Below are positions 1,220 to 44,044 of a DNA stretch of 45,910 nucleotides, piece by piece. The DNA is from Planctomycetia bacterium TMED53 (GTDB taxonomy: Bacteria; Planctomycetota; UBA8108; UBA1146), in assembly GCA_002167285.1 (NCBI GenBank), contig NHDG01000061.1:1-45910 (forward strand), given 5' to 3'. The notes under the pieces are model-generated. The model worked only from the letters and a program-made list of their open reading frames with translations. It did no database searches and was not told the DNA's origin. Every line of letters starts with the position of its first letter. Positions within the stretch are counted from its first letter, which is position 1. The position numbers and the translations under genes were made by a program.

Positions 1220-4200
1220 CTATTCACTAACCACTCTTCGCCAATGATCTGCGATCTTCTTTAGCTCCGTTTGATCGGTATCAGCGGTGGCTTTCTTAGC
1301 AAAGAAGTTTGCCTCCACAGACTGTATCTCAGTACGAAGCTTTTCGAGCAGATCAGGATCTGCAAAGTGGTGAGAAGTCTCTACCTTTCGCAAATACTGC
1401 AGCAAGCTGAGCCCACTCAAAGTGGTCGGAATTTGCCAAGGATCAACTTGCTCTTCTTTTTCGCGTGGAGATCTGAAAAAGAGAAGCCCAACGAAAAGCG
1501 CGGCGATTCCTGCAAAGATTTGCCACAGTTTCAATCCTTGCCTACTTCCAATCGCCAGTTCGGCGGTGGGAGCATCAAGCGTGACGATGTCAAAGTCGGT
1601 GTACCTCTTGCATACGCGCTCTGAACCAGAAGCCACTTCCGGGAATTCAAATTGAATTGGAGCTTCGACAGCACGATTGCGATCAAATCTGAGGGTCCAG
1701 GATCGTTCTGTTTTTGCAACGACGGGCGTAGAGACAGGACTCGAACTGAGGAGGTCCTCATGCATCTCGGTAATATTCAGGCCGTTGTCGAGGAATCCAT
1801 CCACATCTGCAAGTTGAAACCCTGAATCAGCAAAGGTTGTTTTCCAATCAGGGACGAGCTGATCTAACGGTGGAAGTACTCCCAGGCCATCTGCCAAAAT
1901 TTCCATCTCAAGAATCCCATTTTCAAGTTCGCGATCATCCAATGTGAGTTCAACTTTACCTGTGCCATGGGTTGGACGGGGAACGCTTTGAGATGAGGCG
2001 ACGATGGGAATGACAGGAGTTAAGACGGGGATACGAACAGAACCATTAGTGCCGTCTTCAAAATCCAGATCGATTCGAACCTCTGGGATCAGATCCACGG
2101 AGGCGTCTTTTGCTTTCATGATGACGTATGCATAAGACTTCTCCATCCAACCTGGGCGATTGAATGAGTAAGGTTTGAAATCGGGATCATTAAACTGAAT
2201 GGCAATGATTTCGAAATGCTCAGAGAAGGATTCTCGGATACGGCTCTCAAGATCGTCTTTGTAATCCATCGGTTGCTGAGCCAGGGGAGTGTAGACCTGA
2301 TTGTGCAAATAGATGTCGAACCCTTTGGATTCTCTCTCTAAAGCGTCGGTGTATCGTAGCGACAAGTGAAGCCCGAAGGGGTCAGTACCAACATCAGTGC
2401 TGCCGTCGACTTTGCAGTGGAATTCGACCTCTGCTTCTAAGTCTTCGTAAAGCATCGCCAGTCTACGTGTGCCCATGCCTGCAGGGTGATCTTGAATGAT
2501 GCGCATGGCGTGGCGGACAAATCGAGAGCGGAGATCTGCGGGGACGTTACCAATCGCCGATTCCACACCTGCTGAGAACTGTTCGAGGTGGGCAGACTTC
2601 TTTAGTTCGTCGACTCCATTGAAGATTTCCAGAATTCTCAGCACCTGGTCATTCTCAGGACGTGTGGTGACGGTCAGGAAACTTAACTCACTAGCGCCGA
2701 GTGCGGTGGTGAACCACTGAAGGTAAAGTTCGAGATTCACGGGTTGTTCCCCGGCTAGCATCTGCGTCATGTAAAGGTTGCTAGCTTCACGGTAGTTGGC
2801 GAACGCCGCTTCCCGTTGTGGGATGTACCTTTCCAAATCCGGATCCAGCTCTCGCCAGTACTCCGCCAAATCAAAATAGAGATTGGCACTGATGACTCGG
2901 GCTTGCCAGGAAGAAGGATCTTTACTGAAGGCGGATTCAAGAAGGGTTTGACCAAGGGCGTAACCACGTTCCACTTCTTGTTGAATCTCTTTCGTGGTTC
3001 TGCGGGTTCCCGTCGATTTTTGGACGTTGGGATCACGCCAGTTCCTTTGTAGCCGCTTCCACAAACTGCGAGAGATTTCGATGGAGATCTCCGGATCTAG
3101 GTTCGCCACAGGGCCAAAGATCTTTTCGATGTCTTCCACCCTGTAAACCTCTGCTCGACTGTGACTCATAGTGAATGCGCTGACGAGCCCAGGCCAATCG
3201 AGATCTTTAAGGCCTAAGTTTTTGAACTCGACGAGAACTTCCGCGAGTTGCCGTAGGCTTCTTCGCTGCTTAGAGCGAGTGAGAGGTGCGCTGGGTTGTC
3301 CGCCCCTCATTCCTGGGTAGTAAAAGACTCCCGACGAAGTCACAGTTCTTCTTTCAAAGAAGTTTTCATCGGGGCGGTTGGGGTCGAGATTTTGGGACCA
3401 GGATTTAATCAATGCTGCCGACAAGGTATCGGCATCCATCGATTCGTCAGTGCAGCTGAAGGTGACGAAAGCTAATGCATTTTTGGGGTTATCCTGAGTG
3501 GACAGCACTCGGATCGATTTTTCCGCCAGTGGTTGGCGTATCTCTGGAGAAACTTCAGTGAGCCAACTGGCAGTGGGGCAGATTCTTGAAAGATCAGCGA
3601 TGTTAATCCAGGCGTTTCTGCGACCGCTTTTGTTGAGGGTACGACCAAATTCCGTGACAAACACTCGCGAGATGTCGTCCACCAGTTCTTCACGAGTGCC
3701 TGTACCGTTTTCAGCAGCCATCAATGCAGTGGTCAGTTCATGAAGAGAAGTGAGTACCTTCTTCAAGTCAGCGGGAGAAACGTTTCTTTGTTTTGCCAGT
3801 TGGGCATGCTTGTGAAGCAATTCTAAAACCAGCAAACGGCCTGGATTTTGATCACCATTAAATGCACTGGTAAGCCAGAGTTGCTTCCATTCTTCCGGCA
3901 TCATGGGGAGGAGTTCGGCAAAGCCGGTCAGTGCCCGGCTTCGTTGTTTAGATTCGACCTCTGAATCTGGAAACAGGCCTAGCATCAACTCGGCGGCAAG
4001 AATCAAAGAGTTGCGTCGATTCAGCTCTGAGGTTTCAGGATCTTTCGCCACAGCGACGTGGTAGACCGCATGACGAATTTTCAGCTCCGCTGGGGCATCG
4101 CCAGTTTCGGGAAGTGGGTCCATGAAGCCAAGAGTTTCCTTGTGTAATCCCGCTTCGATCAGCATGTCGCAAGCAAGACCTCTTGCGATGGGGTCATCGC

Positions 4201-4900
4201 CACCGACAAAAGGCATACCTTCAGAGAGCCTTCGGACTAAATGGGAGGTGTTGCCTCGGGTCTGCGACTTTCTCAACAGCTGTCCCAGACTGGATAGAGT
4301 CTCTCTGTCCGGAGTTTGAGATCTCAGGGATAGCAACATCAATATATCGCTGGGGGTTACCGACTCATCGATTCTTGCAAGCTTTTGGATCACTTGATCG
4401 AAGCAGGATTCACAGTCTTCTTCTTTGGCGATCAACTCGGCTGCGCCTTGCCAATCTGATGCGGTGATGAGCTTCGTGAGGTAAGTGATTTTTTCAGCAA
4501 CATCGGCGTCTTCAGATGGCGAGGCTTGGGGGTCAAGGATCAAATTTTGTTTGGCTTGAATTACCTGGTCGACCGTTTTTCGGGGAAGATTCAATTGAGC
4601 GATGGCGTCTTTCAAAGAGCTCGCTTCATCTGAATTGGCTTCTTCTGTTGTTGGCGCGATGACCACACCATCTGTTCCTTCAGGAATCATCATCACTGGA
4701 TCCCCATCTTCGCCAATGATGAGATTAGGTGGAACAACGACGCCTGACCCGACGGTAATAGGGCCGATCACACCACGCACGGGTTGAGCCGGTTGCAGAC
4801 GGATTGCTCCACCACATTGGGCAAGGAGATCTGCGGAGATAAGGATCAAAAGGAGAGTCAATGTCGCGGTACAGATGGAAGAACGCAGGTTTGCCAACAT
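1220..4900 (-). CDS. Very large membrane-anchored periplasmic protein (BatD-like position)
   Basis: 1226 residues from the ATG at 4900. A TTG at 4942 is possible, but it would put 14 hydrophilic residues before the signal sequence. Residues 1-28 are a signal peptide ending in LLAQC, which might also be lipidated. A long, mostly helical region follows, with TPR-like or HEAT-like composition and a CESC (CxxC) pair near residues 163-166. The C-terminal part looks beta-rich. One transmembrane helix (about residues 1123-1142, LWQIFAGIAALFVGLLFF) leads to an acidic/basic cytoplasmic tail of about 84 residues. Large secreted proteins with one C-terminal helix often follow vWA genes in Bat operons (BatD), and this gene lies just downstream of one, but a strong terminator separates them. 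I find no recognisable BatD domain, so the function is unknown. It may be an interaction scaffold for the vWA proteins. Confidence 0.8.
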   Translation of the reverse strand: MLANLRSSICTATLTLLLILISADLLAQCGGAIRLQPAQPVRGVIGPITVGSGVVVPPNLIIGEDGDPVMMIPEGTDGVVIAPTTEEANSDEASSLKDAIAQLNLPRKTVDQVIQAKQNLILDPQASPSEDADVAEKITYLTKLITASDWQGAAELIAKEEDCESCFDQVIQKLARIDESVTPSDILMLLSLRSQTPDRETLSSLGQLLRKSQTRGNTSHLVRRLSEGMPFVGGDDPIARGLACDMLIEAGLHKETLGFMDPLPETGDAPAELKIRHAVYHVAVAKDPETSELNRRNSLILAAELMLGLFPDSEVESKQRSRALTGFAELLPMMPEEWKQLWLTSAFNGDQNPGRLLVLELLHKHAQLAKQRNVSPADLKKVLTSLHELTTALMAAENGTGTREELVDDISRVFVTEFGRTLNKSGRRNAWINIADLSRICPTASWLTEVSPEIRQPLAEKSIRVLSTQDNPKNALAFVTFSCTDESMDADTLSAALIKSWSQNLDPNRPDENFFERRTVTSSGVFYYPGMRGGQPSAPLTRSKQRRSLRQLAEVLVEFKNLGLKDLDWPGLVSAFTMSHSRAEVYRVEDIEKIFGPVANLDPEISIEISRSLWKRLQRNWRDPNVQKSTGTRRTTKEIQQEVERGYALGQTLLESAFSKDPSSWQARVISANLYFDLAEYWRELDPDLERYIPQREAAFANYREASNLYMTQMLAGEQPVNLELYLQWFTTALGASELSFLTVTTRPENDQVLRILEIFNGVDELKKSAHLEQFSAGVESAIGNVPADLRSRFVRHAMRIIQDHPAGMGTRRLAMLYEDLEAEVEFHCKVDGSTDVGTDPFGLHLSLRYTDALERESKGFDIYLHNQVYTPLAQQPMDYKDDLESRIRESFSEHFEIIAIQFNDPDFKPYSFNRPGWMEKSYAYVIMKAKDASVDLIPEVRIDLDFEDGTNGSVRIPVLTPVIPIVASSQSVPRPTHGTGKVELTLDDRELENGILEMEILADGLGVLPPLDQLVPDWKTTFADSGFQLADVDGFLDNGLNITEMHEDLLSSSPVSTPVVAKTERSWTLRFDRNRAVEAPIQFEFPEVASGSERVCKRYTDFDIVTLDAPTAELAIGSRQGLKLWQIFAGIAALFVGLLFFRSPREKEEQVDPWQIPTTLSGLSLLQYLRKVETSHHFADPDLLEKLRTEIQSVEANFFAKKATADTDQTELKKIADHWRRVVSE

Positions 4901-5006
4901 GGGAGTTCTTTCTGCAGGGTGTTGTGGGCTCTTTACCTTCAACAGAAGTTACGATTCTATGATCGCGAAGAGATTCTACAGCATCGCCGACGATCGTTAG
5001 GGATGC

Positions 5007-5073: not shown

Positions 5074-5784
5074 TCAGGAACCACCACCGGTGGCACGTGC
5101 TCTGGAAGCACCGACGTTGTTGGCTTTGCTACGACTGTCGCTGATATTGGGTTTACCGTTTTTGCCCTTCGAACCGAGGAGCCCTGAACCCTGTCAGCAA
5201 CCCCCTGGCAGAGGCAATGCTTTCAATTCTGCCAGATCCATACGCTCGAGCCAGATGACTGATTCGACATTCTTTTTGAGGTCAGCGGCATTGGCGAGGT
5301 TCTTCTTTTCCGCTTCTTCAGCGAGGAGTCGGAAGTGCTGGCGCGCCTTTTCTGCTTCTGGCTTCCAGATCTCCGGCTTGGCTCCTTCGAGGCGAAGCTT
5401 CCAAGTTGCAAAGTACTGGGCAGCCGCGATTTTAGCGCGGGCATCGTCGGCGAGATTCGGTTGATCCTTCGCCGCTTCATTCATGACTTCTTCCATCGCC
5501 GTGATGCCAGCCCAAGTATTGCCACTCATAAAGTCGGCGTGACTGGTTTGTAGACGCAACCAAAGAATCGCTTCCTGATCGTCATCGGGAACATCGGCGA
5601 GTGCTTGTTGGTAGAGCTCGACTGCTTTCTTCCACTCCTCTGCTTCAGCGCAGATTCGCGCTTCTTCAACGGTGGAAGAGAGACGGGTGCGGGCTTGTAG
5701 ATCCTGCCCAGGTCCGAACCACCAGATCGCGACGAGCACTGGAATCACGGCCCACAGTGTCCAAAGAGTTTTTCTTCGATTCAT
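5074..5784 (-). CDS. Candidate selenoprotein: membrane-anchored TPR protein (BatC-like) with in-frame TGA
   Basis: The ATG at 5784 follows a GGAAGGA ribosome-binding site. Residues 1-25 hold one membrane helix (LWTLWAVIPVLVAIWWFGPG) and the rest is helical and TPR-like (EEWKKAVELYQQAL). Its place after two vWA genes is that of the TPR protein BatC. A TGA at 5194-5196 follows ALPLPGGC. The frame then stays open for 39 codons (QGSGLLGSKGKNGKP... to ...RATGGGS) and ends at a second TGA, 5074-5076, just before the terminator. If TGA is read as Sec the protein has 236 residues with Gly-Cys-Sec at 195-197, similar to the C-terminal redox motif of mammalian thioredoxin reductase. A SECIS-like hairpin follows at the right distance. 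Without recoding the product is 196 residues, ending in Cys. The gene is certain; Sec decoding is inferred from the hairpin, the open frame and the SelW gene in the same window. Confidence 0.75.
5164..5182 (-). promoter_or_regulatory. Putative bacterial SECIS element for the TGA at 5194
   Basis: On the minus strand, GCTCCTCG-GTT-CGAAGGGC folds into four pairs (one G-U), a C-A mismatch, three pairs and a GTT loop. The loop starts 20 bases after the TGA. Known bacterial SECIS elements have a small apical loop with G in the first two positions, about 16-37 bases after the UGA, and this one meets both rules. It matches the SelW hairpin of this window in every stem and loop length. Confidence 0.65.
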
Positions 5785-5863: not shown

Positions 5864-6859
5864 CTAACGTGTGAGGGCTGGTGATTCTCTGCGTTGGCTC
5901 CTGTGGCCGAATTGAGCGAGTAATAGAGGAAGCAGGGCAAGAATACTGGTACCGATTCCCGCTCCGGTAACACAGAGATCTCTCAATAACGTCTGATCTT
6001 CGACACTGGGAACCGCCATCGCCAAGTTGCGGACAACTTCAGTTGGAAGATGTTTGGTGTTGGCATCGTGGTAGAGGCCTCCGAGTCGAACTGCCAATCG
6101 CTGTAAGGCTTGAATGTTTTGACGAGAAGTACGACCTGCAACGGTGGATCCTTTATGGGGATCTCCGACACCGAGAACGAGTACATCCGAAATAGACAGG
6201 GGGAGCCTCGCTGGTAATGATCCACCGACGGTGTCTCCATCGGAAACGACGATTAGAGTCGTACTACCCTTTGGCCAAGCCTTGGCAAAATCCAGGGCCT
6301 TTTCTACCCCTTGTTGGAGCTGGGTACTTCCCGCTTCAAAAGCAAACTCCATCGGCAGTCCATTGAGAACATTGTTGACGACATTGATGTCAAAAGACTC
6401 GAGGACCACAGGGAATGCATCGGTGTAGAAAGCGACCACGGATACCCGCGTACGAGACATGTCGAGGCGCTGGAATACCGCTTCGAGAACTTCCGAGGCA
6501 CGGGTACCACGACGAATGTTTCTCTCCGGCCCCGAATCTTCCAGATACATGCTGGGTGAGACGTCGAGGGCGATCAGCAGATGTTGGGAAGGTTCCTGCG
6601 TCGGATCGATTTCGGGTGGTTTCGATTCGAGGTGAGCCAGCACCCAGAGTGAGAATCCCAGCATCAAAGCCGCAATAGTTCGCAGAAAGGGGACTAAAGC
6701 GGTCCAGCTCCGGGGGCCCTCGGGCCCAAAGGTGAGGCTTTGCGTTTCGCGGATGCGCCGCCGATGAAGCCACTCGCCAAGGCCTGCCACCAACGCGCAC
6801 AACAGGCCAACGATGACAGCCTGATGGATCAGCGCTTCAATCGGATCGACTTCTACCAT
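5864..6859 (-). CDS. BatB-like membrane protein with von Willebrand factor A domain
   Basis: 331 residues from the ATG at 6859, which follows GGAGG with eight-base spacing and overlaps the stop of the previous gene. Two N-terminal membrane helices (about residues 10-30 and 57-76) are followed by a vWA domain. Its metal-binding DxSxS motif is intact (DVSPS, residues 99-103), as is the later VVSDGDT segment. A third hydrophobic segment lies near the C-terminus (SILALLPLLLAQF). The vWA domain should face the periplasm. BatB-type proteins act with MoxR ATPases and BatA; in Bacteroides and Leptospira they were linked to stress or oxygen tolerance, but the molecular role is unknown. Confidence 0.9.
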   Translation of the reverse strand: MVEVDPIEALIHQAVIVGLLCALVAGLGEWLHRRRIRETQSLTFGPEGPRSWTALVPFLRTIAALMLGFSLWVLAHLESKPPEIDPTQEPSQHLLIALDVSPSMYLEDSGPERNIRRGTRASEVLEAVFQRLDMSRTRVSVVAFYTDAFPVVLESFDINVVNNVLNGLPMEFAFEAGSTQLQQGVEKALDFAKAWPKGSTTLIVVSDGDTVGGSLPARLPLSISDVLVLGVGDPHKGSTVAGRTSRQNIQALQRLAVRLGGLYHDANTKHLPTEVVRNLAMAVPSVEDQTLLRDLCVTGAGIGTSILALLPLLLAQFGHRSQRRESPALTR

Positions 6860-7770
6860 GGCGTGATCCTCCAACGCAGGAAGAGAACCAGGTGGAGCCC
6901 AAGTAGTCCGAGACCACTCCAGGCAAAGGGAGAGAAGTCCTCGATGGGTCGTGCGCCGGCAGGTTTCAGTTTTGCGGGCTTCATTTCATCGATGTGGGCA
7001 AAGACTCTCTCCAGTCCTGCAGTATCAGAAACGGCAAAGACTTCACCCTGCGTTTGCGACACCACTTCATAGAGTTGACTGGGTGCTGCCCCATCACCAA
7101 TGAAGATCGCATACAGAGCCACGTTGTATTCAGAGAGCTCTTGCCCGATTTGTCGTGCAGCTCCACCGCCTAGATCAGAAGAGAATCCATCGGAAACGAG
7201 AACGATGAGTCGGTCTCCTTCTTCTACCTGCGAGAGCGTGGCAAGGCACGATTCGAGAGCCAAGCCGATTCGAGTAGATCCCATGTGGGGGGGAAGTCTG
7301 CGTGGGTCGATAAATGGGGCAGCTAAAGAGATTGCCGAGAGATCGCGGGTGAGGGGAGTCCAGCGAATAGTTTCTCCACCAAAGATCGTCAAGCCGCACG
7401 CATCTCCTTCGCGCATTTTGCAGAAGTACTGAATACTTTCTACCGCAGCATCGCTGCGCAGTTTTCCGTCGGACATATCGACGCCCATTGAGCCAGACAC
7501 ATCGAGGCAGATTTCGATGTTGGAGATTTCGCGCTTCTTTTCTGGCTCGCCCATGAACTGGGGGCCAGCCATCACCGCGATGCCAATAAAGAGCAATAGG
7601 TGCGGTAAGGCTGAACTGAACCACAGAAACTTGCCGAGAAAGAAGCGTTTCGAATGCTCCCGATGATCGACAGGAACAGCGATTCGCGGACCTTCGCGGA
7701 AGGCTTCCCAGAGCAGCAAGAATACAGGTACTAGCCAGAAGACCAGCACCCATGGGTGCATGAAACTCAC
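6853..7770 (-). CDS. BatA-like membrane protein with von Willebrand factor A domain
   Basis: 305 residues. The GTG start at 7770 overlaps the TGA of the gene before it and has AGGTGG about seven bases upstream. An ATG three codons later is the alternative. Two N-terminal helices (about residues 5-21 and 50-69) precede a vWA domain with the MIDAS motif DVSGS (residues 90-94), GSTRIG and VSDGFSSD, so metal binding looks intact. A C-terminal helix (LGLLGLHLVLFLRW) gives the usual BatA layout. It is translationally coupled to both neighbours, so it is expected in fixed ratio with the DUF4381-like and BatB-like proteins. Confidence 0.92.
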   Translation of the reverse strand: MSFMHPWVLVFWLVPVFLLLWEAFREGPRIAVPVDHREHSKRFFLGKFLWFSSALPHLLLFIGIAVMAGPQFMGEPEKKREISNIEICLDVSGSMGVDMSDGKLRSDAAVESIQYFCKMREGDACGLTIFGGETIRWTPLTRDLSAISLAAPFIDPRRLPPHMGSTRIGLALESCLATLSQVEEGDRLIVLVSDGFSSDLGGGAARQIGQELSEYNVALYAIFIGDGAAPSQLYEVVSQTQGEVFAVSDTAGLERVFAHIDEMKPAKLKPAGARPIEDFSPFAWSGLGLLGLHLVLFLRWRITPW

Positions 7771-8621
7771 TCTGGCACCACCTTTTCAGCCGCCATGCTC
7801 TTGTAAGGTTGCAGCAGTTTTTCAACCTGTTCAGTATTGGCATCGGTTTCTTTGCCAGAGTGGAGCCAGCGTTCGATGGTGACGATCAACTCGCCAGCGA
7901 CTTCATGCTTGCGCATCGCTTGCAAAGCTTCCGCGTGACGAAAGGAACCCAGGTTTAGATCGTCGCGCCAAAAAGCGAGGAGTAATCTTTCCAGAGCTGC
8001 TTTGCCTTCAGAATCGAGTTCTCCCGCCAAAGCCTGATCAACAAATGGTCTTAATTTATCAGCGATGGTGAGCACGACTTCGACCACTGGTTCAGGAGGT
8101 GGTGGCCGCATCCAGCGAAGAACTCCAAGAATGATCAATGGCAGAACTAACCAAAATCCAACGACAGCCCAAAGAACCCATGCTGGAAAATCGATCACGG
8201 GAGAGAGGGTTCCCGGTAGATTCGCGAGATTCCCTTCGTGATCCGAGCCGAGTAATGAATCGGCATGGACGATCATCGGCGGCAGTTCCGCAGGACGATT
8301 TTCTCCATAGCGAAAAAAGATGGAGAGATCGTGATCACCGGGAAGCAGCGCTAGCCAGCGAATGTCATAGTTGGCCTGATTACTATCCAAAGTTTCCATA
8401 GTGACGTTGGCGATGCGCACGAGAACAGGAGAGTCTTCCGGAATCGGCGCGACTTCCAAGGCTTCACCTTGCCATTTGAAATGAAAGTGTCCTTCAATGC
8501 CGACACTGCTATTCGACAAAGCCTCATTCGAAATAGTTTCCTGTGCCGGCAGCTGTGTCGCCAAGTAGAGCGGCAAGAAACCAATGACAAGAGAGAGAGT
8601 CCTCAAAAGATTCAAGATCAT
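7767..8621 (-). CDS. Signal-peptide, single-helix membrane protein with DUF4381-like layout
   Basis: 284 residues. It has a signal peptide (about 1-26, cut near LPAQ), an extracytoplasmic domain of about 115 residues, a transmembrane helix (145-169) followed by a proline-rich MRPPPPEP linker, and a helical cytoplasmic domain. That C-terminal part resembles DUF4381 proteins, which lie between DUF58 and BatA genes in many such operons. I assign it by position and layout rather than by a diagnostic motif. The ATG at 8621 overlaps the stop of the DUF58 gene. It may link cytoplasmic MoxR/DUF58 to the periplasmic vWA domains (inference). Confidence 0.75.
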   Translation of the reverse strand: MILNLLRTLSLVIGFLPLYLATQLPAQETISNEALSNSSVGIEGHFHFKWQGEALEVAPIPEDSPVLVRIANVTMETLDSNQANYDIRWLALLPGDHDLSIFFRYGENRPAELPPMIVHADSLLGSDHEGNLANLPGTLSPVIDFPAWVLWAVVGFWLVLPLIILGVLRWMRPPPPEPVVEVVLTIADKLRPFVDQALAGELDSEGKAALERLLLAFWRDDLNLGSFRHAEALQAMRKHEVAGELIVTIERWLHSGKETDANTEQVEKLLQPYKSMAAEKVVPE

Positions 8622-9475
8622 CCTTGTCCCCTGTCACTGAGAAAACGCCGCACCGGTGAGATGAAATCCTGATCTGTTTTCAGCAGTAGATGATCGATGC
8701 CGCCCTCAGCCAACTCTCCCCTGCGGCCCTTTTCTGGATCGATACCCCATTGGGTTCGAGAGCTGCCAAGGAATGATTGCCCAGTCTCCGCCTCGGTCCC
8801 ACGGTAGTAACCGCCGCGAGGCAAACCACCTTCAGCAGGATCTTGAAACTCGATGACTGCGACATCGTGACCCTGTGAAAGGCGGCGGCAGGCATCGATC
8901 GCATCTGGATCGTGGAGGTCGGAGAGGATAAACACGACAGAGCGTTGCAAGGTGGTAGCCCTGACCCAATCGAGGGCCTCTCCGAGGCAGGTTTTCTCAT
9001 CGATGTTTGGCTGCCGAAGAGCTTCGATCGCTTGTTGCAGTGCTCCACGGGAGAGGCTCGTTTGCGATGGTAACTGTCTTGTGCCTCCGCCGATGAGGCG
9101 GGTCGGGCTCATCCTTCTCTGAGCGACCAATCCGATAGCCGCCGCAATCCAGGTCGCTTGGGAGTATTTCGAGAGAGGGCCGGAGGTCGTCACCATCGAT
9201 CCTGAAGTATCGACGACGATCTGAACCGGAACCCTCTTTAAGGTGTCGTATTCCTTGACGAAGGGAGTGCCGGTACGAGCGCTGATCTTCCAATCCATCG
9301 AGGCGATCGGATCCCCAGGTTCATACGGGCGCGACTGGGCGTATTCCAAACCACTACCGACAAAGATGCTTTCGTCGGCACCGTGGGCCAGATCGTTGGC
9401 GAGTTTGCGAACGACCATCTCGAATTCGTGGTGGCCCAACGCCTCCGGGGGAGGCAGGGAGACTCCGGTTCCCAT
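8618..9475 (-). CDS. DUF58 / vWA-like protein of the MoxR operon
   Basis: 285 residues from the ATG at 9475, which has GGGGAAG upstream and lies 13 bases after the MoxR stop. The DUF58 signature is clear: YEPGDPIASMDWKISAR at about residues 51-67, then FVKEY. It continues into a vWA-like fold with VDTSGSM (MIDAS DTSGS, residues 89-93) and FILSDLHDPDA. It has no membrane helix, so it is cytoplasmic. DUF58 proteins are the standard partner of MoxR ATPases and may be their direct substrate or adaptor. Confidence 0.93.
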   Translation of the reverse strand: MGTGVSLPPPEALGHHEFEMVVRKLANDLAHGADESIFVGSGLEYAQSRPYEPGDPIASMDWKISARTGTPFVKEYDTLKRVPVQIVVDTSGSMVTTSGPLSKYSQATWIAAAIGLVAQRRMSPTRLIGGGTRQLPSQTSLSRGALQQAIEALRQPNIDEKTCLGEALDWVRATTLQRSVVFILSDLHDPDAIDACRRLSQGHDVAVIEFQDPAEGGLPRGGYYRGTEAETGQSFLGSSRTQWGIDPEKGRRGELAEGGIDHLLLKTDQDFISPVRRFLSDRGQG

Positions 9476-9488
9476 TCCGAGCTTCCCC

Positions 9489-10493
9489 TCAGGCCAGTTG
9501 GTCCAGGATTTCAGCGAGGACGTCTTCGTCGCGACGCCCGCGGGCGACCGCTTCATAAGATAGACGAATACGGTGCAGCAAAATGTCTTCTGCCAAGGCA
9601 AAGATGTCTTCAGGAACGACGTAATCCCGACCGTGGAGGAAAGCACGTGCTCTCGAAGCAGTGACCAACGAGATTCCTGCACGGGGTGATCCGCCCAATT
9701 CGATGTCAGGGTGGTTTCTTGTTTTATTGACCAGATCGACACAGTGACGCACGAAGACGTCACTGACATGAACCTCAAGAACCTTTTCCATTGCGGTGGT
9801 CAGGTCGGCCACTCCCATCGGTGCGCTCTTGTCGATGGCATCGAAAGCAGACATCGGCATCGCTCCGCCATCTTCAGATCGACGCAGTTTCAAGTTTAGG
9901 GCTCGCTTCAGTACTTCTGATTCGTCATCTGCCTCCAAGTATGTTAGGCGGTGGCGCATCAGAAAGCGGTCCAGCTGTGCTTCAGGAAGTTCAAAGGTAC
10001 CCGCCTGTTCGACTGGGTTCTGGGTGGCGATCACTAAGAAAGGGCTCGGTAGTGAATACGTGGTTTCACCGATGGTGACCTTTCGTTCCTGCATCGCTTC
10101 GAGGAGTGCGGATTGTACCTTAGGGGAAGCACGGTTGATCTCATCGGCGAGAAGTAAATTGGTGAAGATGGGCCCCTTATGTGTACGGAATTCACCACTG
10201 TCTTTGTCGAGGATTTCAGAGCCGACGATGTCAGAGGGAAGCAGATCGATGGTGAACTGGACTCTGCCGAATTGAAGTTCAATAGAATGAGCTAGTGACT
10301 GTACCAGCAAAGTTTTCGCTGTTCCGGGAACCCCTTCCAGTAGTAAGTGCCCGCCAGTCAGTAGTGAAATCAGTCCGCGTTCGAGGACGATGTCTTGCCC
10401 AACTACAGTTTTGCGCACGTGATCGCGAACTTTCTCCGCGAATGGTGAAGGAGCAGTTTGGGTGTTTTCGGATGCTGACAAGATGATGTCCAT
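9489..10493 (-). CDS. moxR: MoxR family AAA+ ATPase
   Basis: 334 residues, near the family's usual length. Walker A is GVPGTAKT (residues 54-61), Walker B LLLADEIN (113-120), sensor 1 ATQNP (156-160), and the conserved AQLDRF segment follows. A C-terminal lid domain ends the protein. MoxR proteins are cytoplasmic AAA+ machines that remodel or activate partner proteins, often those with vWA domains; here five genes for likely partners follow. It is the first gene of the minus-strand operon ending at the terminator near 5040. The promoter should lie upstream of 10493, although only 33 bases separate it from the RarD-like gene, which is read in the same direction. Confidence 0.95.
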   Translation of the reverse strand: MDIILSASENTQTAPSPFAEKVRDHVRKTVVGQDIVLERGLISLLTGGHLLLEGVPGTAKTLLVQSLAHSIELQFGRVQFTIDLLPSDIVGSEILDKDSGEFRTHKGPIFTNLLLADEINRASPKVQSALLEAMQERKVTIGETTYSLPSPFLVIATQNPVEQAGTFELPEAQLDRFLMRHRLTYLEADDESEVLKRALNLKLRRSEDGGAMPMSAFDAIDKSAPMGVADLTTAMEKVLEVHVSDVFVRHCVDLVNKTRNHPDIELGGSPRAGISLVTASRARAFLHGRDYVVPEDIFALAEDILLHRIRLSYEAVARGRRDEDVLAEILDQLA

Positions 10494-11494: not shown

Positions 11495-11878
11495 ATGGCC
11501 CCTGAGCATTTTTGTTTGATTGTGGCAGGATGGGAAATAGCGATAGGCATTCCTTTGTTATTTCGTAGGCAGCGGTTTTTGCAATGGCTGGAGAGGGTCA
11601 GCCATGACACTTCCAAAATGAGGGTCTTCCTTGGGGGCTGGGTGGCGATCGGTGTCGCAGCGGTGATGGGGAACCCTTATCCAGCGTGGGATCTAGTCGG
11701 AATCCTCAGCCTTCTTGCATGGGTGACGAGTGTCAAGTGCGCGATCGGGGTCATATGGACTGACAAATTGATTCGAATCTCTCTAAGCATGATGAAGAAG
11801 GGCTCTCCTGGCCTCGGCGGCTTCGTTGTCGGTGTTGGCCTTGCGCTCATCTATGCTTTTGTCAGCTTAAAGTCTTGA
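11495..11878 (+). CDS. Small four-helix membrane protein, unknown function
   Basis: 127 residues with four hydrophobic segments: about 6-23, 43-60, 65-90 and 105-125. AGGAAG lies very close before the ATG. I do not recognise the family. It is followed after 38 bases by three lipoprotein genes in the same direction and may share their transcript. Its basic loops (LLFRRQRFLQWLERV, MMKKGS) suggest an inner-membrane protein. Confidence 0.7.
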   Translation: MAPEHFCLIVAGWEIAIGIPLLFRRQRFLQWLERVSHDTSKMRVFLGGWVAIGVAAVMGNPYPAWDLVGILSLLAWVTSVKCAIGVIWTDKLIRISLSMMKKGSPGLGGFVVGVGLALIYAFVSLKS

Positions 11879-11916
11879 TTCAGTACCCTTGTTTTCAAAT
11901 CGTCCGCGGAGGTGCC

Positions 11917-12888
11917 ATGAAGCATTTTCAGATTTTCATGCCGAAATGGGCTCAGCTCTGCTCAATCTTAATTGCACTTGTTGGGTGTGCTCCGCAGCAA
12001 CAGTCGGCTTCGTTATATGTTGCCGCTGAAGTAGAGAGTTTTGTCGAAGGCGGCCAAAAAATCAGTACCGAGGCCATCGGAACGGTATATCTGGGCCCAC
12101 CCCTTTTGCATGCAGAATATGTAGGCCAAGAGAGAATCTACATCAGCGATGTGACATTTGTAGAAGATGAGAACAAGCCGTTTTTACTGTTGAGCCCCCA
12201 GATGTTTTTGCAGTTTGCAATGAGGTCTGAAGAATCGAAGGGGATGTCGGTAGAAGCGTATCTGAAGCAGCTCGAAAGTGATGAACTGCAACCGGGGAAA
12301 TCAGTTTATTTGGTTGCTGAAACAGAAGATGCGAAAATCGTGCACAAGTTGAAAATCGGATACAGCAACGATTCTAAGGGTGTTTTTCTTTTATACCCCT
12401 TTCAGGGTTATCCGACTCAAAGCATGCGCAACAGCAATCAGTTTGAGATCAGGGAATTACTCGATCAGGCCGACGAGGATGCAACAGAAGTTCAAAGTTG
12501 GAACAAAAGCCCGAATGAATTACTCCATGTAGGCGATCCTCTGTTTCCAATAGGGCGTGTGCAAGTCGCCATCGAAAATTCACTTCGCCTGATGGAGCGA
12601 AGTGACTTGAGGGTCCAAAGAGAGAAGGATGGTGTTCAAGCCCATCCAATTTATTCGGATATATGGAGCTGCAAACCAGTGATAGCAACTTGGGTTGAAG
12701 ACGGCAATCTGGTTGGGGAGAAAGCATATCTATGGCCCTCGTCACCAGGCTTGCACATTGAGATTGAATCTATTGAAGAACTTCATCAGATCAGGAATGA
12801 CTTTAAGCGGCTTAAGTACAGTGGGTTTTATAAATCTACTGAGGGGTTTTTTAAGGGAAACCAACCTGGAAGTCAGGGGTCACTCTAA
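11917..12888 (+). CDS. Lipoprotein, first of three tandem paralogues
   Basis: 323 residues. The ATG at 11917 follows GGAGG. The signal peptide ends in the lipobox LVGC (Cys24). The mature part shares with the next two genes an N-terminal segment (VEGGQKISTEAIGTVYLGPPLLHAE in pattern), a middle segment of the type MSVEAYLKQLxSxxLxxGKxVYLVxE, a C-terminal segment (AYLWPSSPGLHIEIE) and the last residues QGSL. I know no such family. It should be anchored to a membrane through Cys24. The family looks like a planctomycete-type lineage-specific lipoprotein set. Confidence 0.8.
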   Translation: MKHFQIFMPKWAQLCSILIALVGCAPQQQSASLYVAAEVESFVEGGQKISTEAIGTVYLGPPLLHAEYVGQERIYISDVTFVEDENKPFLLLSPQMFLQFAMRSEESKGMSVEAYLKQLESDELQPGKSVYLVAETEDAKIVHKLKIGYSNDSKGVFLLYPFQGYPTQSMRNSNQFEIRELLDQADEDATEVQSWNKSPNELLHVGDPLFPIGRVQVAIENSLRLMERSDLRVQREKDGVQAHPIYSDIWSCKPVIATWVEDGNLVGEKAYLWPSSPGLHIEIESIEELHQIRNDFKRLKYSGFYKSTEGFFKGNQPGSQGSL

Positions 12889-12991
12889 GGGAGCTCTTGT
12901 CCTTTAGATTGCTTCTAATCTCGAGGTAGTCTTCTGATACAATCTCTCTCCCGCCATGATTGAGCCTCTTTCAAATGACTTTGGAGTGCCG

Positions 12992-13957
12992 ATGAGGATG
13001 AGTCGTAGTTCGTCAGCTCTTCTGATTACAGCGATGGCAAGTGTGCTTTTGATGAGTGGATGCAAAGTAGAAGCTCCATCGATGAAGATATTTGTCACTT
13101 ATGAATCGCCAGAGCCAGTTGATGGCGGCTCGACGATATCTACTGCAAAACTTGGGACTGTTCACTTAGGTCCTCCATTATTAAAAGCTAATTTTGTGGG
13201 TAGCGAGGAGGTCGATTTTAAGGAGATCTCGCTCCCGCATTTTGAAGAGCATTTTTTGTGTCTGGGGCCGCAAATTTTTCTTCAATCAGAAATGAAAACG
13301 AATCGGTCAACGGGTATGTCCATGGAAGAATACCTGAACGGTATGAGTAGCGAGTTCTTGCAATCAGGGAAAAGGATCTATTTGGTGATAGAGTGCGATG
13401 GCCGAAGAGTTGCACACCAATTGAAGATTTCACAAAGGGACGACCCCACCGGCTTGTTTATTCAATACTCAACTCCCTATGGGTCGCAGGGTAGGCGTAC
13501 TCAGGTTGAGTTTTTGGAGCCGCTAGAAGCTCCTGACGATTTCTCAAAGAAAATCCGGATTTGGAATTCAGATTCGAATCAAACGCTCAATGGAGGAGCT
13601 TTGGTGTTTCGAGTAAGAGGAACTTCTTCGGTAGGGTTTTACAAAAGAGCCAAAGATGTCGGCATTGATACCTCGAAGAAGGACAAAGACAGCATTTCTA
13701 CAGATCATATGTATTCAGATACATGGTTTTGCAAAGAAACGATCGCGACCTGGAAAGACTCATCAGGGAATTGGGTAGGCGAGAGAGCATACCTTTGGCC
13801 TTCTGTTCCAGGCTTGCATATTGATATGGATGACCCCGAAGTGATCAATGATCTTAGGGCCGATCTGCGGAGCTTTGAGCGCTTTCGTTTTAATATCAAT
13901 TGGGGCCGTATCGGTTTTACCAAGAACGGGGCTTCTTCAAAAGGAGGGGCATTATGA
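12992..13957 (+). CDS. Lipoprotein, second of three tandem paralogues
   Basis: 321 residues. The ATG at 12992 has GGAG five bases upstream; an in-frame ATG at 12956 lacks one. The lipobox is LMSGC (Cys24). Shared segments are VDGGSTISTAKLGTVHLGPPLL near residues 40-61, MSMEEYLNGMSSEFLQSGK, AYLWPSVPGLHIDM near the C-terminus, and a final GGAL. Of the three it is most like the first gene. Its TGA overlaps the ATG of the third gene, so the two are translationally coupled. Function unknown. Confidence 0.8.
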   Translation: MRMSRSSSALLITAMASVLLMSGCKVEAPSMKIFVTYESPEPVDGGSTISTAKLGTVHLGPPLLKANFVGSEEVDFKEISLPHFEEHFLCLGPQIFLQSEMKTNRSTGMSMEEYLNGMSSEFLQSGKRIYLVIECDGRRVAHQLKISQRDDPTGLFIQYSTPYGSQGRRTQVEFLEPLEAPDDFSKKIRIWNSDSNQTLNGGALVFRVRGTSSVGFYKRAKDVGIDTSKKDKDSISTDHMYSDTWFCKETIATWKDSSGNWVGERAYLWPSVPGLHIDMDDPEVINDLRADLRSFERFRFNINWGRIGFTKNGASSKGGAL

Positions 13958-15066
13958 AACGCTGGATAGTGCTCATGACTTTCTCTGTCCTCGCATTAGT
14001 GCTCTCGAGTTGCATGCGCAGTCAACATACTCCTGTGGGTAGTTCATACAAGATTTTAATAGCGGCGAAAGTAGATCAACCCGTTGAAGGTGGAATCTCT
14101 GCAAAGACAGGATCCTTAGGTTTAGTGCATTTGGGAAAGCCTCTCCTTGCTGCTGAGTTTCAGCATGACATTCACCAGAGTAATTTTATGCACGGTCAAA
14201 GATTCCATTTCATAGATTTTTCGATAGAGAGTCTTGAACCCCAAAGAGTTCTGAATTTGCCGCCAACTTTGTTTTTGAATCGTGAAGGCGTCAAGGGTAT
14301 GGAAGCGGATGTCATCCTTGAGCGGCTCAAGAGTGAGGAGCTTGCCACCGGCAAGCAGGTTTATCTGATTGTGGAAACAGAAGCCAATCGAGTAATTTTT
14401 GCACTAAGGACAACGCGGTTAGATCACCCCGACTACGTTTTCATTCAGAAAAATTTTGATTATTTAAAGTGGGATTACAATTCCCGAAGAGGTGAATATG
14501 AAGTGCGGCAAAGGAAGAGCGAGCAAGATAAAGATTCAACAGGCTTTCCTAGATCACCTCAGTCGCAAACAGGTGATGGATCTGGCGAAGGAGCCGCTGA
14601 TGAATTTTTGTATGCCGGGGAAAAACTATTCAAGGTCACTAGTTATGGCTGGTCTTCAGGTATGCCTTCCCGGGTAAAAATCAAAAATGACGGAAAATCT
14701 ACAGGTTTCTCAATAGAAGAGCTGCAATCACTTCATGGGGAGAGAGTGGTTTTGACCTGGCAAACCAATGACCCCCAAAGGCTGGTGGGGATTCCGAGAG
14801 CGTTAGGGCGACCATCGAATCGTCAGCAGGGAAGTTCAAGTCGACAATCCTCTGATTCTGAGGAGGCATATGGAGATGGGATTCCCAGGGTTGCAGCAAG
14901 CGCGATTTTCTGGTCATCGATACCGGGGCTCCACTTTGAGATGGATCAACCTTGGAGATTAGACGAAATCAGGCGAGATATCCGTAACCTCGGCATTGAT
15001 GGTCTTCAGTGGATGACGATCGATTACAGTCCAGGTGGAGTGTCTACGAGTGGCGGTTCCCTCTAG
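13954..15066 (+). CDS. Lipoprotein, third and longest tandem paralogue
   Basis: 370 residues. The ATG at 13954 follows AGGAGG and overlaps the previous stop. The lipobox is VLSSC (Cys20). It keeps the family segments VEGG...GLVHLGKPLLAAEF, LKSEELATGKQVYLIVE, SSIPGLHFEMDQPW and a final GGSL. It differs from the others in having two hydrophilic serine/glutamine-rich insertions (about residues 195-220 and 290-320), the second reading SNRQQGSSSRQSSDSEE. These are probably surface loops or disordered linkers. Function unknown. Confidence 0.8.
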   Translation: MKRWIVLMTFSVLALVLSSCMRSQHTPVGSSYKILIAAKVDQPVEGGISAKTGSLGLVHLGKPLLAAEFQHDIHQSNFMHGQRFHFIDFSIESLEPQRVLNLPPTLFLNREGVKGMEADVILERLKSEELATGKQVYLIVETEANRVIFALRTTRLDHPDYVFIQKNFDYLKWDYNSRRGEYEVRQRKSEQDKDSTGFPRSPQSQTGDGSGEGAADEFLYAGEKLFKVTSYGWSSGMPSRVKIKNDGKSTGFSIEELQSLHGERVVLTWQTNDPQRLVGIPRALGRPSNRQQGSSSRQSSDSEEAYGDGIPRVAASAIFWSSIPGLHFEMDQPWRLDEIRRDIRNLGIDGLQWMTIDYSPGGVSTSGGSL

Positions 15067-19253: not shown

Positions 19254-21125
19254 GTGTCCGAGTCCATTTTGGACATCCCAACCGGTGGGAGTGCTGAGGA
19301 AGAACCTCCTTCGCAAGCGATCCGCGATGCAGCCGGAATTCTCCTTCAGGAAGTCTTCGGATACGAATCTTTTCGAGGTCCTCAAGAGAAGGTCATCGAA
19401 CGGGTCGTCAGTGGTGGCGACGCCCTCGTATTGATGCCTACCGGTGGGGGCAAATCGATCTGCTACCAGATTCCTGGATTGATTCGCCAGGGGCTCACCG
19501 TGGTGGTCACGCCGACGATCTCCCTGATGCAAGATCAAGTTGCAGCTTTGGTTCAAGCAGGCGTATCCGCAGCAGCGTTGAATTCTTCAATGGAGGCAGA
19601 TGATCGTCGAAGAGTCTGGGCGAAGCTGCACGACGGCGAAATCAAGATCCTGTACCTCGCTCCGGAAAGGCTTCTCCTCGAAGGATTCCTCGATCAGCTG
19701 GGCGACTTCAACCCTGGGCTCTTTGCTATCGATGAAGCCCATTGCATTAGTCAGTGGGGGCATGATTTTCGTGCTGAATATCAACAGCTGGGGTCGCTAA
19801 GACAAAGATATCCGCAAGTTCCAGTGATCGGTTTGACAGCGACTGCAGACCCTCAAACGTTGAAGGACGTCTTAGGTGTTTTGCAGATGTCAAAAGAAGA
19901 TGTTTTTTCAACATCGATGAATCGTCCGAATTTGCGATATCTGGTGGAACCGAAAGATCAACCTCGCAGGCAGCTATTACGCTTTATCAAAGATCGTCAC
20001 GCCGGAGAAGCGGGAATCATCTACTGTGGTTCACGCAAAAAAGTCGAAGACACGGCAGAGTGGCTGCGCAAGGAAGGAATCCGTGCAGTCCCTTATCACG
20101 CCGGTATGGAAAACCAGCAGCGGTCGCTGAATCAGCAGTTGTTTCAAAGGGAAGAGGGGATCGTCGTTGTCGCGACCGTGGCATTTGGTATGGGGATCGA
20201 TAAGCCCAATGTGCGCTTTGTTGCTCATCTCGACATGCCTGAAAGCCCACAGCACTACAGTCAGGAGTCTGGCAGAGCGGGGCGTGATGGGCTTCCAGCC
20301 GAATGTTGGCTCTGTTACGGCTGGCAAGATGTGATGATGGCTCAAAGGCGCCTTGCCGAGGCTGAGCTGGATCAGAGTCAGAAACAGATTCGGCGCCATC
20401 AGATTGATGCAATACTGGCATATTGTGAGACGGCGGAATGTCGCAGGGCCAACATGCTGCGTTTCTTTGGAGAAGAAGCAGACTCCTGCACTACCGACGA
20501 TCAAGGTTGCGATAACTGTTTAAGTACTGTTGAAGTTTCCGATGGTACGGTGCTCGCGCAAAAGTTGCTTTCTGCAATTTCTCGAACCGGGCAAGTGTTT
20601 GGCAAAGCCCATGTCATCGACGTCCTTACCGGGAATGCCACTGAGAAAGTTGCAAAGTTTGGCCATGATCGATTGAGCGTTTACGGGATTGGCACCGAAC
20701 TAGATGAAGCGGGCTGGCATTCCGTTTTTCGGCAACTCGCTTCGATGGGCTTGGTGCGAATCGATCTCGAAGGACACAACGGAATTTCTCTTGATCCCAG
20801 TTGTCGAAAAATACTTCGGGGTGAAGAGAAGTTTTCGTTTCGGAAAGACCGATTGCCAAAAAAGGCGAAGCGAAAACGAAAGAAGAAAAAAGAACTGGGC
20901 CTCGATGCGATGCAGGCGAGTCTCTTCGAGCGATTACGGCAGCACCGGTTGGAGCTATCCCGCGAACTGGAAGTCCCGCCCTACACGATTTTTCACGATT
21001 CTACCCTCGTCGAAATGTCTCAATTGAAGCCCCAAACTCTCAGTCAAATGTCGATGATTTCCGGAGTGGGCCAAAAGAAACTGGAAAAATGGGGGCAGGG
21101 GTTCCTCGAAATCATCACCGCATAA
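19254..21125 (+). CDS. recQ: RecQ family ATP-dependent DNA helicase
   Basis: 623 residues from a GTG start with GGGGGGAG seven bases upstream. Domains in order: RecA-like domain 1 with Walker A MPTGGGKS and DEAH box [15 protein letters not shown]; RecA-like domain 2 with [10 protein letters not shown] and ESGRAGRDG; an RQC zinc site with cysteines in [12 protein letters not shown]...DSC...GCDNC; a winged helix; a basic linker ([12 protein letters not shown]); and a C-terminal HRDC domain ending in [13 protein letters not shown]. It unwinds DNA 3' to 5' in recombination repair and replication-fork rescue. It is a single gene. Confidence 0.96.
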
Positions 21126-28998: not shown

Positions 28999-29745
28999 TT
29001 AATTGCAGTTGAGATAGCTCTCGCAATCGAGAGCGTCACTGGTGTCATCGGGGCCACAGTCTACTGGGCCTGGTGCGATTGGAGGTGGCCCACCAGAAAA
29101 CAAGGCTGCCAGGGAATAGATGGCATCACCCAAGTTTTCACTGCCGTCATCATTCGTATCACAGGCATCGCGGCAGGGCCCTGCAGGTCCTGCGGTAAAG
29201 AGAAATGCCAATTGGTAGATGGTGTCCGCCAAATTAAAGACCAAGTCACCATTGCAATCTCCACGCCTGAAAATTGAACCGCTATCCCAGCACGGCCCAA
29301 CATTTGTCACGATGGAGTTCGCATTGGGATCGGCAAACACTGGGTTCTCCAGGCAGATCGTTCCGTTGTAGGGCAATCCGTTCGTCGTAGAGATGGTTAC
29401 TTCGACTAAGGTTTGAGCAGCTGGAACTGGCGGAATGGGAGTGAGGGTGATGGAGAAGCCGAGGACAGTGGTACTGCCGGTTCCGATGTCATATCCCAGT
29501 GAGCCTGCAACGCCACAGCATGCATCGGAGAGAATCCCTGTCGGTGTATCAAAAACCACATCGAATTGAAAACCAGCGATCAATTCGTTACTGGTGAAGA
29601 GGACCGGAAACACACCGGTACCGGTTGCTGGATCCCAAGTGAGTGATCCCATTTCGATAGAGACACCCGGTTGAGCAGCAAGGCGATCGGTTGAGACCGC
29701 TGCAAATATCAGCATTAGAAAAAAAAGAGTAATATTCCTTCGCAT
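28999..29745 (-). CDS. Secreted protein with cohesin-like and dockerin-like domains
   Basis: 248 residues. Signal peptide about 1-24 (cut near RLAAQ). Residues 28-150 are beta-rich and look like a cohesin-type fold (GFQFDVVFDTPTGILSD). From about 160 there are two EF-hand-like repeats: RRGDCNGDLVFNLADTIYQL and CDTNDDGSENLGDAIYSL, each followed by an LF..GGP-type turn, then CGPDDTSDALDC. This two-repeat tail is typical of marine planctomycetes and resembles dockerins, which bind calcium and partner proteins. Six or more cysteines suggest disulfides. It converges with the zincin gene, nine bases apart. Confidence 0.88.
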   Translation of the reverse strand: MRRNITLFFLMLIFAAVSTDRLAAQPGVSIEMGSLTWDPATGTGVFPVLFTSNELIAGFQFDVVFDTPTGILSDACCGVAGSLGYDIGTGSTTVLGFSITLTPIPPVPAAQTLVEVTISTTNGLPYNGTICLENPVFADPNANSIVTNVGPCWDSGSIFRRGDCNGDLVFNLADTIYQLAFLFTAGPAGPCRDACDTNDDGSENLGDAIYSLAALFSGGPPPIAPGPVDCGPDDTSDALDCESYLNCN

Positions 29746-43816: not shown

Positions 43817-44044
43817 ATGGATATCAGCATCGAATACTGCGTAAAGTGAAACTACACCCCCCAGGCCACCAGTTTGGCGGCCGACTTGAATGAAAAGTAT
43901 GGTGTAGACGTTCGCCTCATCGAAAGTGGCGGTGGAGTTTTTGAAGTGGTGATCGATGGAGAATTGGTTTTCAGCAAAAAAGAGCTGAGCCGTTTCCCAG
44001 AGCACTCTGAGATTTATTCGGCGGTGGATTCCCGCCAGGCATAG
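43817..44044 (+). CDS. SelW-like selenoprotein (Rdx family), TGA-encoded selenocysteine
   Basis: 75 residues including Sec. The ATG at 43817 has AAGGAA about ten bases upstream. The N-terminus MDISIEYCVK is followed by TGA (43847-43849) and then NYTPQATSLAADLNEKYGV, so the thioredoxin-like CxxC position reads Cys8-Val-Lys-Sec11. The rest matches the Rdx/SelW fold: GVDVRLIESGGGVFEV, VIDGELVFSKKELSRFPE. The frame ends at TAG. A standard gene caller would miss this gene because of the TGA. SelW-like proteins are small cytosolic redox proteins. A SECIS-like hairpin lies just after the TGA. It is followed by ettA after 32 bases. Confidence 0.93.
43864..43882 (+). promoter_or_regulatory. Putative bacterial SECIS element of the SelW-like gene
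   Basis: GGCCACCA-GTT-TGGCGGCC forms four pairs, an A-C mismatch, three pairs and a GTT loop. The loop starts 23 bases after the TGA, inside the usual 16-37 range, with G in the first loop position as bacterial SECIS elements need. SelB should bind it to deliver Sec-tRNA. Confidence 0.85.

Follow-up and report, generated by a model that had tools for sequence, protein, structure and literature searches.

Two candidate SECIS hairpins on a Planctomycetota contig, in a SelW-like gene and in a gene for a TPR protein with a Sec/Cys tail

In the stretch of DNA that we analysed as a whole (45,910 nt, hereafter the window), two short hairpins of the same outline follow TGA codons: hairpin A at 43864-43882 on the plus strand and hairpin B at 5164-5182 on the minus strand. 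This raises the question of whether the two TGAs are stops or selenocysteine (Sec) codons, and of whether the common outline is, as an earlier note on this DNA had supposed, a SelB-binding form selected in this lineage. On comparative sequence evidence, we consider both hairpins to be bacterial SECIS (bSECIS) elements of genuine selenoprotein genes, with a probability of roughly 0.92.

The host genome is a Planctomycetota MAG that encodes the machinery for Sec insertion: a SelB scoring above its NCBIfam cut-off, a tRNA-Sec with the anticodon UCA, and a Sec-type SelD with an in-frame TGA, located on the same contig as the tRNA-Sec. No Rfam family matched the window at gathering thresholds. Further apparent selenoproteins were observed in the genome (G000; contigs C8, C22, C50, C81 and C87; loci L187, L232, L210 and L216), namely SelD, FdhA, a peroxiredoxin (PGU) and a Trx-like UGIC protein, and contig C87 carries an AhpC/TSA-family match with an in-frame TGA. 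Elsewhere in the window, three consecutive lipoprotein-like genes with a common layout (11875-15066, plus strand) form a tandem paralogue family sharing the motif GTVYLGPPLL / GTVHLGPPLL / GLVHLGKPLL, and the minus strand encodes, at 28999-29745, a secreted protein whose C-terminal repeat is dockerin-like (GDCNGDLVFNLADTIYQLAFLFTAGP...).

Shape, folding and chance expectation of the hairpins

Hairpin A reads GGCC-A-CCA-GTT-TGG-C-GGCC and hairpin B GCTC-C-TCG-GTT-CGA-A-GGGC. The earlier note had described both as 4 bp, one mismatch, 3 bp and a GTT loop, and had proposed thermodynamic folding as a check; sequence and ViennaRNA agree with it, since each hairpin folds to exactly 4 bp, one 1x1 mismatch, 3 bp and a GUU loop, both alone and in a 50 nt context. 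Its distance of 20 or 23 bases after TGA holds for the start of the apical loop (the 20th nt after UGA in hairpin B, the 23rd in hairpin A), not for the stems, which begin at nt 12 and nt 15 after TGA, respectively. The UGA-to-loop spacing is thus 22 nt for hairpin A and 19 nt for hairpin B; counting the U of UGA as nt 1, hairpin B spans nt 15-33, with the loop at G23, U24 and U25. The bSECIS consensus is a stem of 4-16 bp with a loop of 3-9 nt, containing G followed by G or U, 16-37 nt after UGA (PMC13188914), and both hairpins, with 7 bp plus the mismatch, lie within its stem and loop-distance ranges.

Stability and shape were of limited use as evidence. Hairpin A alone has an MFE of -9.9 kcal/mol (z -2.59), and hairpin B one of -5.2 kcal/mol alone (z -0.61) and of -10.6 in the 50 nt context, compared with a bSECIS threshold of -7.5 kcal/mol. 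Given its z value, hairpin B is by itself of no unusual stability, and stability alone was dropped as an argument. The earlier note had also asked how many equal hairpins follow ordinary TGAs, and we counted the exact shape with its loop 16-37 nt after any TGA, in the window and in shuffled windows. It follows 3 of the 1907 TGAs of the window, against 0.38 cases per shuffled window, and two or more cases occurred in 3 of 40 shuffled windows. By itself the exact shape exceeds chance weakly, which is too little for the count to serve as proof, and it is the comparative evidence that decides. The third hairpin of this shape, at 20792, lies inside recQ and out of frame, and was rejected.

A SelW-like gene and the conserved stem of hairpin A

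Gene A (43817-44044, plus strand) encodes, when read through its TGA, a protein of 75 aa beginning MDISIEYCVKUNYTPQ, with the CxxU motif CVKU. It matches the Pfam Rdx family PF10262 (8e-20, 71.3 bits against a cut-off of 22.6) and NCBIfam NF041051 (SelTWH; 97.3 bits against a cut-off of 88). The putative Sec codon, at 43847-43849 on the plus strand, aligns with a TGA that is present in most of the SelW homologues of relatives. Gene A is a selenoprotein of a known kind.

The stem of hairpin A was evaluated on 25 aligned sequences, which are related and hence do not count as independent events: the seven pairs are formed in 94% of cells, against 84.7% in shuffles, and the stem attains a covariation score of 0.329, where shuffles give 0.163 and 0 of 500 come up to the observed score. 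Both sides have changed in 4 of the 7 pairs, and the signal is lost when the partner is slid by 1-3 columns. The clearest covarying pair, 21-33, is C-G in most sequences and G-C in six, and its changes fall on the wobble bases of Ala codons; paired wobble-wobble changes are part of the strong covariation of this stem. The Ser codon of the loop is AGT in 21 of the 21 homologues that have Ser there, with AGT making up 17.5% of the Ser codons in window ORFs, and the closest non-Sec SelW homologues with Ser at this site use AGC or TCT. The alignment indicates that the stem of hairpin A is kept by selection.

Gene B, its Sec/Cys site and its gene cluster

Gene B (5074-5784, minus strand) would encode a membrane-anchored TPR selenoprotein of 236 aa, judging from its translation, homologues, conserved tail and AlphaFold2 model. 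Its putative Sec UGA is at 5194-5196 on the minus strand, and the frame runs 39 codons beyond it. The protein has an N-terminal hydrophobic (TM) helix, weak TPR matches and the C-terminus LPLPGGC-U-QGSGLLG...GGGS. AlphaFold2 (mean pLDDT 82.9) predicts the N-terminal helix and a confident helical domain at residues 26-189, and the tail 198-236, which contains Sec, has a pLDDT under 50 and is predicted to be disordered. Fold comparison (Foldseek/VIA) returned generic TPR proteins alone (Z up to 15.8) and no specific functional relative, so that the model is consistent with a TPR-like fold and nothing more specific. Codon changes in the tail relative to members of the genus were 7 synonymous and 0 non-synonymous in one case and 17 synonymous and 4 non-synonymous in the other, a pattern which indicates that the tail past the UGA evolves as coding sequence under purifying selection.

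The same TGA and tail are found in 12 genomes of the window's family, including its own, and a profile search found gene B in 49 of 392 genomes of the phylum. Scanning public genome contigs gave 94 encoding stretches, with 80 loci kept, mostly from Planctomycetota and Verrucomicrobiota, and the family is widespread in both. Among the 105 loci with a readable site, where some genomes enter twice under two locus ids, the same column is TGA in 88 and a Cys codon in 17. The common motif is LPLPSQ-U-xGC, with the UxGC pair in most members; the window's own family has GGC-U-QGS at this site, which means that the partner Cys has shifted there from position +3 to -1.

A hairpin of at least 4 bp follows the UGA in all 66 distinct Sec forms, with a GGUC loop in 56 and a GUU loop in 10, and no GGUC or GUU hairpin was found among the 16 distinct Cys forms. 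In the GGUC hairpins, the inner pairs 2-5 covary and are seen as different standard pairs. Of the 36 Sec-form genomes searched, about 33 gave a selB match, versus 8 of 22 genomes with a no-stop copy of gene B, a contrast for which the Fisher p of ~1e-5 is indicative only, because a few genomes are counted more than once and the forms cluster by phylogeny. Roseibacillus persicicus (L092, G412) is one host that has both a Sec form and selB. The search for selB gave no match in three Sec-form genomes (L078, L102 and L112), whose assemblies may be incomplete. On a quick tree of 50 gene-B proteins, parsimony counts 7 Sec/Cys changes, and since most inner branches are weak, it is uncertain how many of the switches were independent. 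Taken together, conservation past the UGA, exchange with Cys, the SECIS hairpin and the host machinery show, on comparative grounds, that the gene-B UGA is decoded through.

In four homologues (L085, L089, L104 and L105) a second in-frame TGA follows the first (LPLPxQ-U-QGT-U-SGK...); their tails align with the C-xG-C-C-SG of the Cys form, and one GGUC hairpin lies 33 nt past the first TGA and 21 nt past the second; from these distances, a single SECIS may serve both Sec codons (UQGTU). In the Sec forms of the GGUC type (L064-L143), the hairpin sequence seems to impose the residues that follow Sec (R-G-R, G-G-R-P), and at this place the Cys forms have Cys-rich tails.

Gene B belongs to a cluster encoded on the minus strand. 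It is adjoined, in relatives too, by a VWA-domain membrane protein in a BatB-like position (5864-6874; Pfam VWA_2), followed by a second one in a BatA-like position (6853-7770; Pfam VWA, synteny), and by a cluster membrane protein placed by synteny (7767-8621; no Pfam match, with "DUF4381?" as a working label only). A DUF58 protein (8618-9778; Pfam DUF58 2.6e-31, synteny), whose true start is probably near 9490, after MoxR, and a MoxR AAA+ ATPase (9489-10493; Pfam AAA_3 1.2e-63, synteny) complete this side. After gene B comes a large exported or membrane protein in what would be a BatD-like position (1220-4942; no Pfam match), a relative of which adjoins gene B in 72 of the 80 loci. Most loci have the order MoxR, DUF58, membrane protein, two VWA proteins, gene B and the large protein with no Pfam match. 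VWA and MoxR genes were not found beside gene B in genera g3 and g4 of the window's family and in some Verrucomicrobiota loci. L068-L073, relatives within the window's family, have gene B and the large protein after it, and VWA/MoxR genes were not found beside these two; the cluster may be split there, or the contigs may end too soon.

As for novelty, gene B had no NCBIfam match at an E-value of 0.1 or better, two of its Sec-form relatives gave nothing above an NCBIfam cut-off, and Pfam gave sub-threshold TPR matches only, with no model of its own. A 2026 compilation of 119 prokaryotic selenoprotein families names none as a TPR protein and has no entry in which gene B is recognisable, and no TPR or Bat selenoprotein was found in the freely readable literature searched. 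Within these sources, absence from which is no proof of novelty, gene B represents a previously unlisted family of selenoproteins. Since neither the profile libraries nor the literature searched hold an entry for it, reading the TGA as a stop codon would cut about 40 residues from its members. The hairpins themselves are textbook; the interest lies in an unlisted TPR selenoprotein family of two large phyla.

Competing readings and known systems

If the UGAs were ordinary stops and the hairpins chance or transcription-related structures, one would point to the exact shape, expected about 0.4 times by chance in a window of this size, and to the weak stability of hairpin B alone. This reading is extremely improbable, being contradicted by the exchange of Sec and Cys at one column together with a hairpin that every distinct Sec form has and no Cys form has; protein conservation under purifying selection past the UGA, covarying stems and the Sec machinery of the genome stand against it as well. 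The proposal that 4 bp, mismatch, 3 bp and GTT form a distinct SelB-binding class selected in the lineage, with the mismatch standing in for the bulged U17 of E. coli, is also very unlikely, if somewhat less so. In its favour, the two window hairpins have this shape in common. In E. coli fdhF the bulge sits 3 bp below the loop, as the unpaired position does here. Moreover, hairpin B has U, G and U at nt 17, 23 and 24, the key positions of the E. coli SECIS (PMC8659212), with U17 lying unbulged in a U.G pair. However, the mismatch is not conserved: among 26 distinct SelW hairpins the site is A.C in 11 and a standard pair in 13 (12 G-C, 1 G-U), and in the window's family the 8 distinct gene-B hairpins have C.A there in 5 cases and C-G in 3. 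Most gene-B homologues have a GGUC tetraloop, and the other Sec genes of the host lack the shape: SelD has a GGUCG loop, the peroxiredoxin a CGUGA loop and the Trx-like gene A-GUC-U on a 7-bp stem, and these and FdhA differ from hairpins A and B in stem and loop lengths (L185, L186, L190, L204, L211 and L215 were left out of this comparison for wrong frames). With these geometries and a mismatch that is not kept, the shared design comes down to the published bSECIS consensus (PMC13188914), in which G and U of the loop are the bases that count. Of the lineage-selected SelB form supposed in the earlier note, the covariation upholds a selected SECIS, and the lineage-specific 4-1-3-GTT form falls away. 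The covariance-model scan that the note had suggested for finding more selenoproteins was run, with a model trained on the hairpins of SelW, gene-B and Trx-like genes and combined with family searches. It recovers the training genes and, in 3 of the 3 sister genomes searched, formate dehydrogenase, at individually low scores (E 0.08 to 2.2); the FdhA match (...NCSRG-U-HSPTVAG..., G000:C22:3851) has an in-frame TGA at a conserved position. Other candidates of the model were rejected as unconvincing, since none showed a long frame that stays open before and after a TGA and has a counterpart in the sister genomes.

Under the preferred reading, that of genuine SECIS elements, SelB with Sec-tRNA(Sec) would bind the GU-containing apical loop and deliver Sec at the UGA upstream of the hairpin. 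The product of gene A would then act as a SelW-like CxxU redox protein, and that of gene B would be anchored in the membrane by its N-terminus and would carry a TPR domain and, at the C-terminus, a flexible tail, whose Sec/Cys residues could form a tethered thiol/selenol redox arm of a membrane complex. That gene B is such an arm of a Bat-type MoxR/VWA complex is a tentative proposal, to which we give slightly less than even odds, and we are equally guarded about this proposal joined with one SECIS for two Secs in the two-TGA homologues. A metal-binding or protein-docking tail, rather than a redox arm, appears unlikely: the Cys-rich tails of several Cys forms (CCSGECQC, CKCKGCC) would suit metal binding too, and the tail is predicted to be disordered, but the most frequent motif, UxGC, has the UxxC pattern that redox selenoproteins typically show (PMC13188914), and Sec forms retain a Cys or a second Sec near the first. 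If the redox arm is real, the "aerotolerance" operon would gain a concrete redox chemistry in Planctomycetota and Verrucomicrobiota; as the family sits in a Bat-type cluster of unproven oxidative-stress role, the Sec/Cys pair offers a testable handle.

Compared with known systems, gene A belongs to the SelW-like/Rdx selenoproteins (NF041051, PF10262) by its CxxU motif, length and scores, and nothing notable differs. As in E. coli fdhF and in the bSECISearch consensus (PMC13188914, PMC1088965), hairpins A and B lie close after the UGA and within the coding region, and their small loops, with G then U/G, fall 16-37 nt from it. Hairpin B begins 11 nt after the UGA with U17, G23 and U24, likewise as in the E. 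coli SECIS (PMC8659212); the difference is that hairpins A and B have a GUU triloop and a 1x1 mismatch where E. coli has a bulge. In Bat operons, the VWA proteins come together with a TPR protein, either BatC or a BatB-BatC fusion; no specific function has been shown for Bat proteins, and their deletion in Leptospira biflexa left oxidative-stress tolerance unchanged (PMC3557215). The window's cluster resembles this system in uniting MoxR, DUF58, two VWA membrane proteins and a TPR protein, and gene B, by domains, synteny and predicted fold a TPR protein accompanied by MoxR, DUF58 and VWA genes, would by analogy occupy the place of BatC. The cluster differs from the Bat system (PMC3557215) in that no Pfam family matches the large protein after gene B, and in that its TPR protein bears a Sec/Cys tail.
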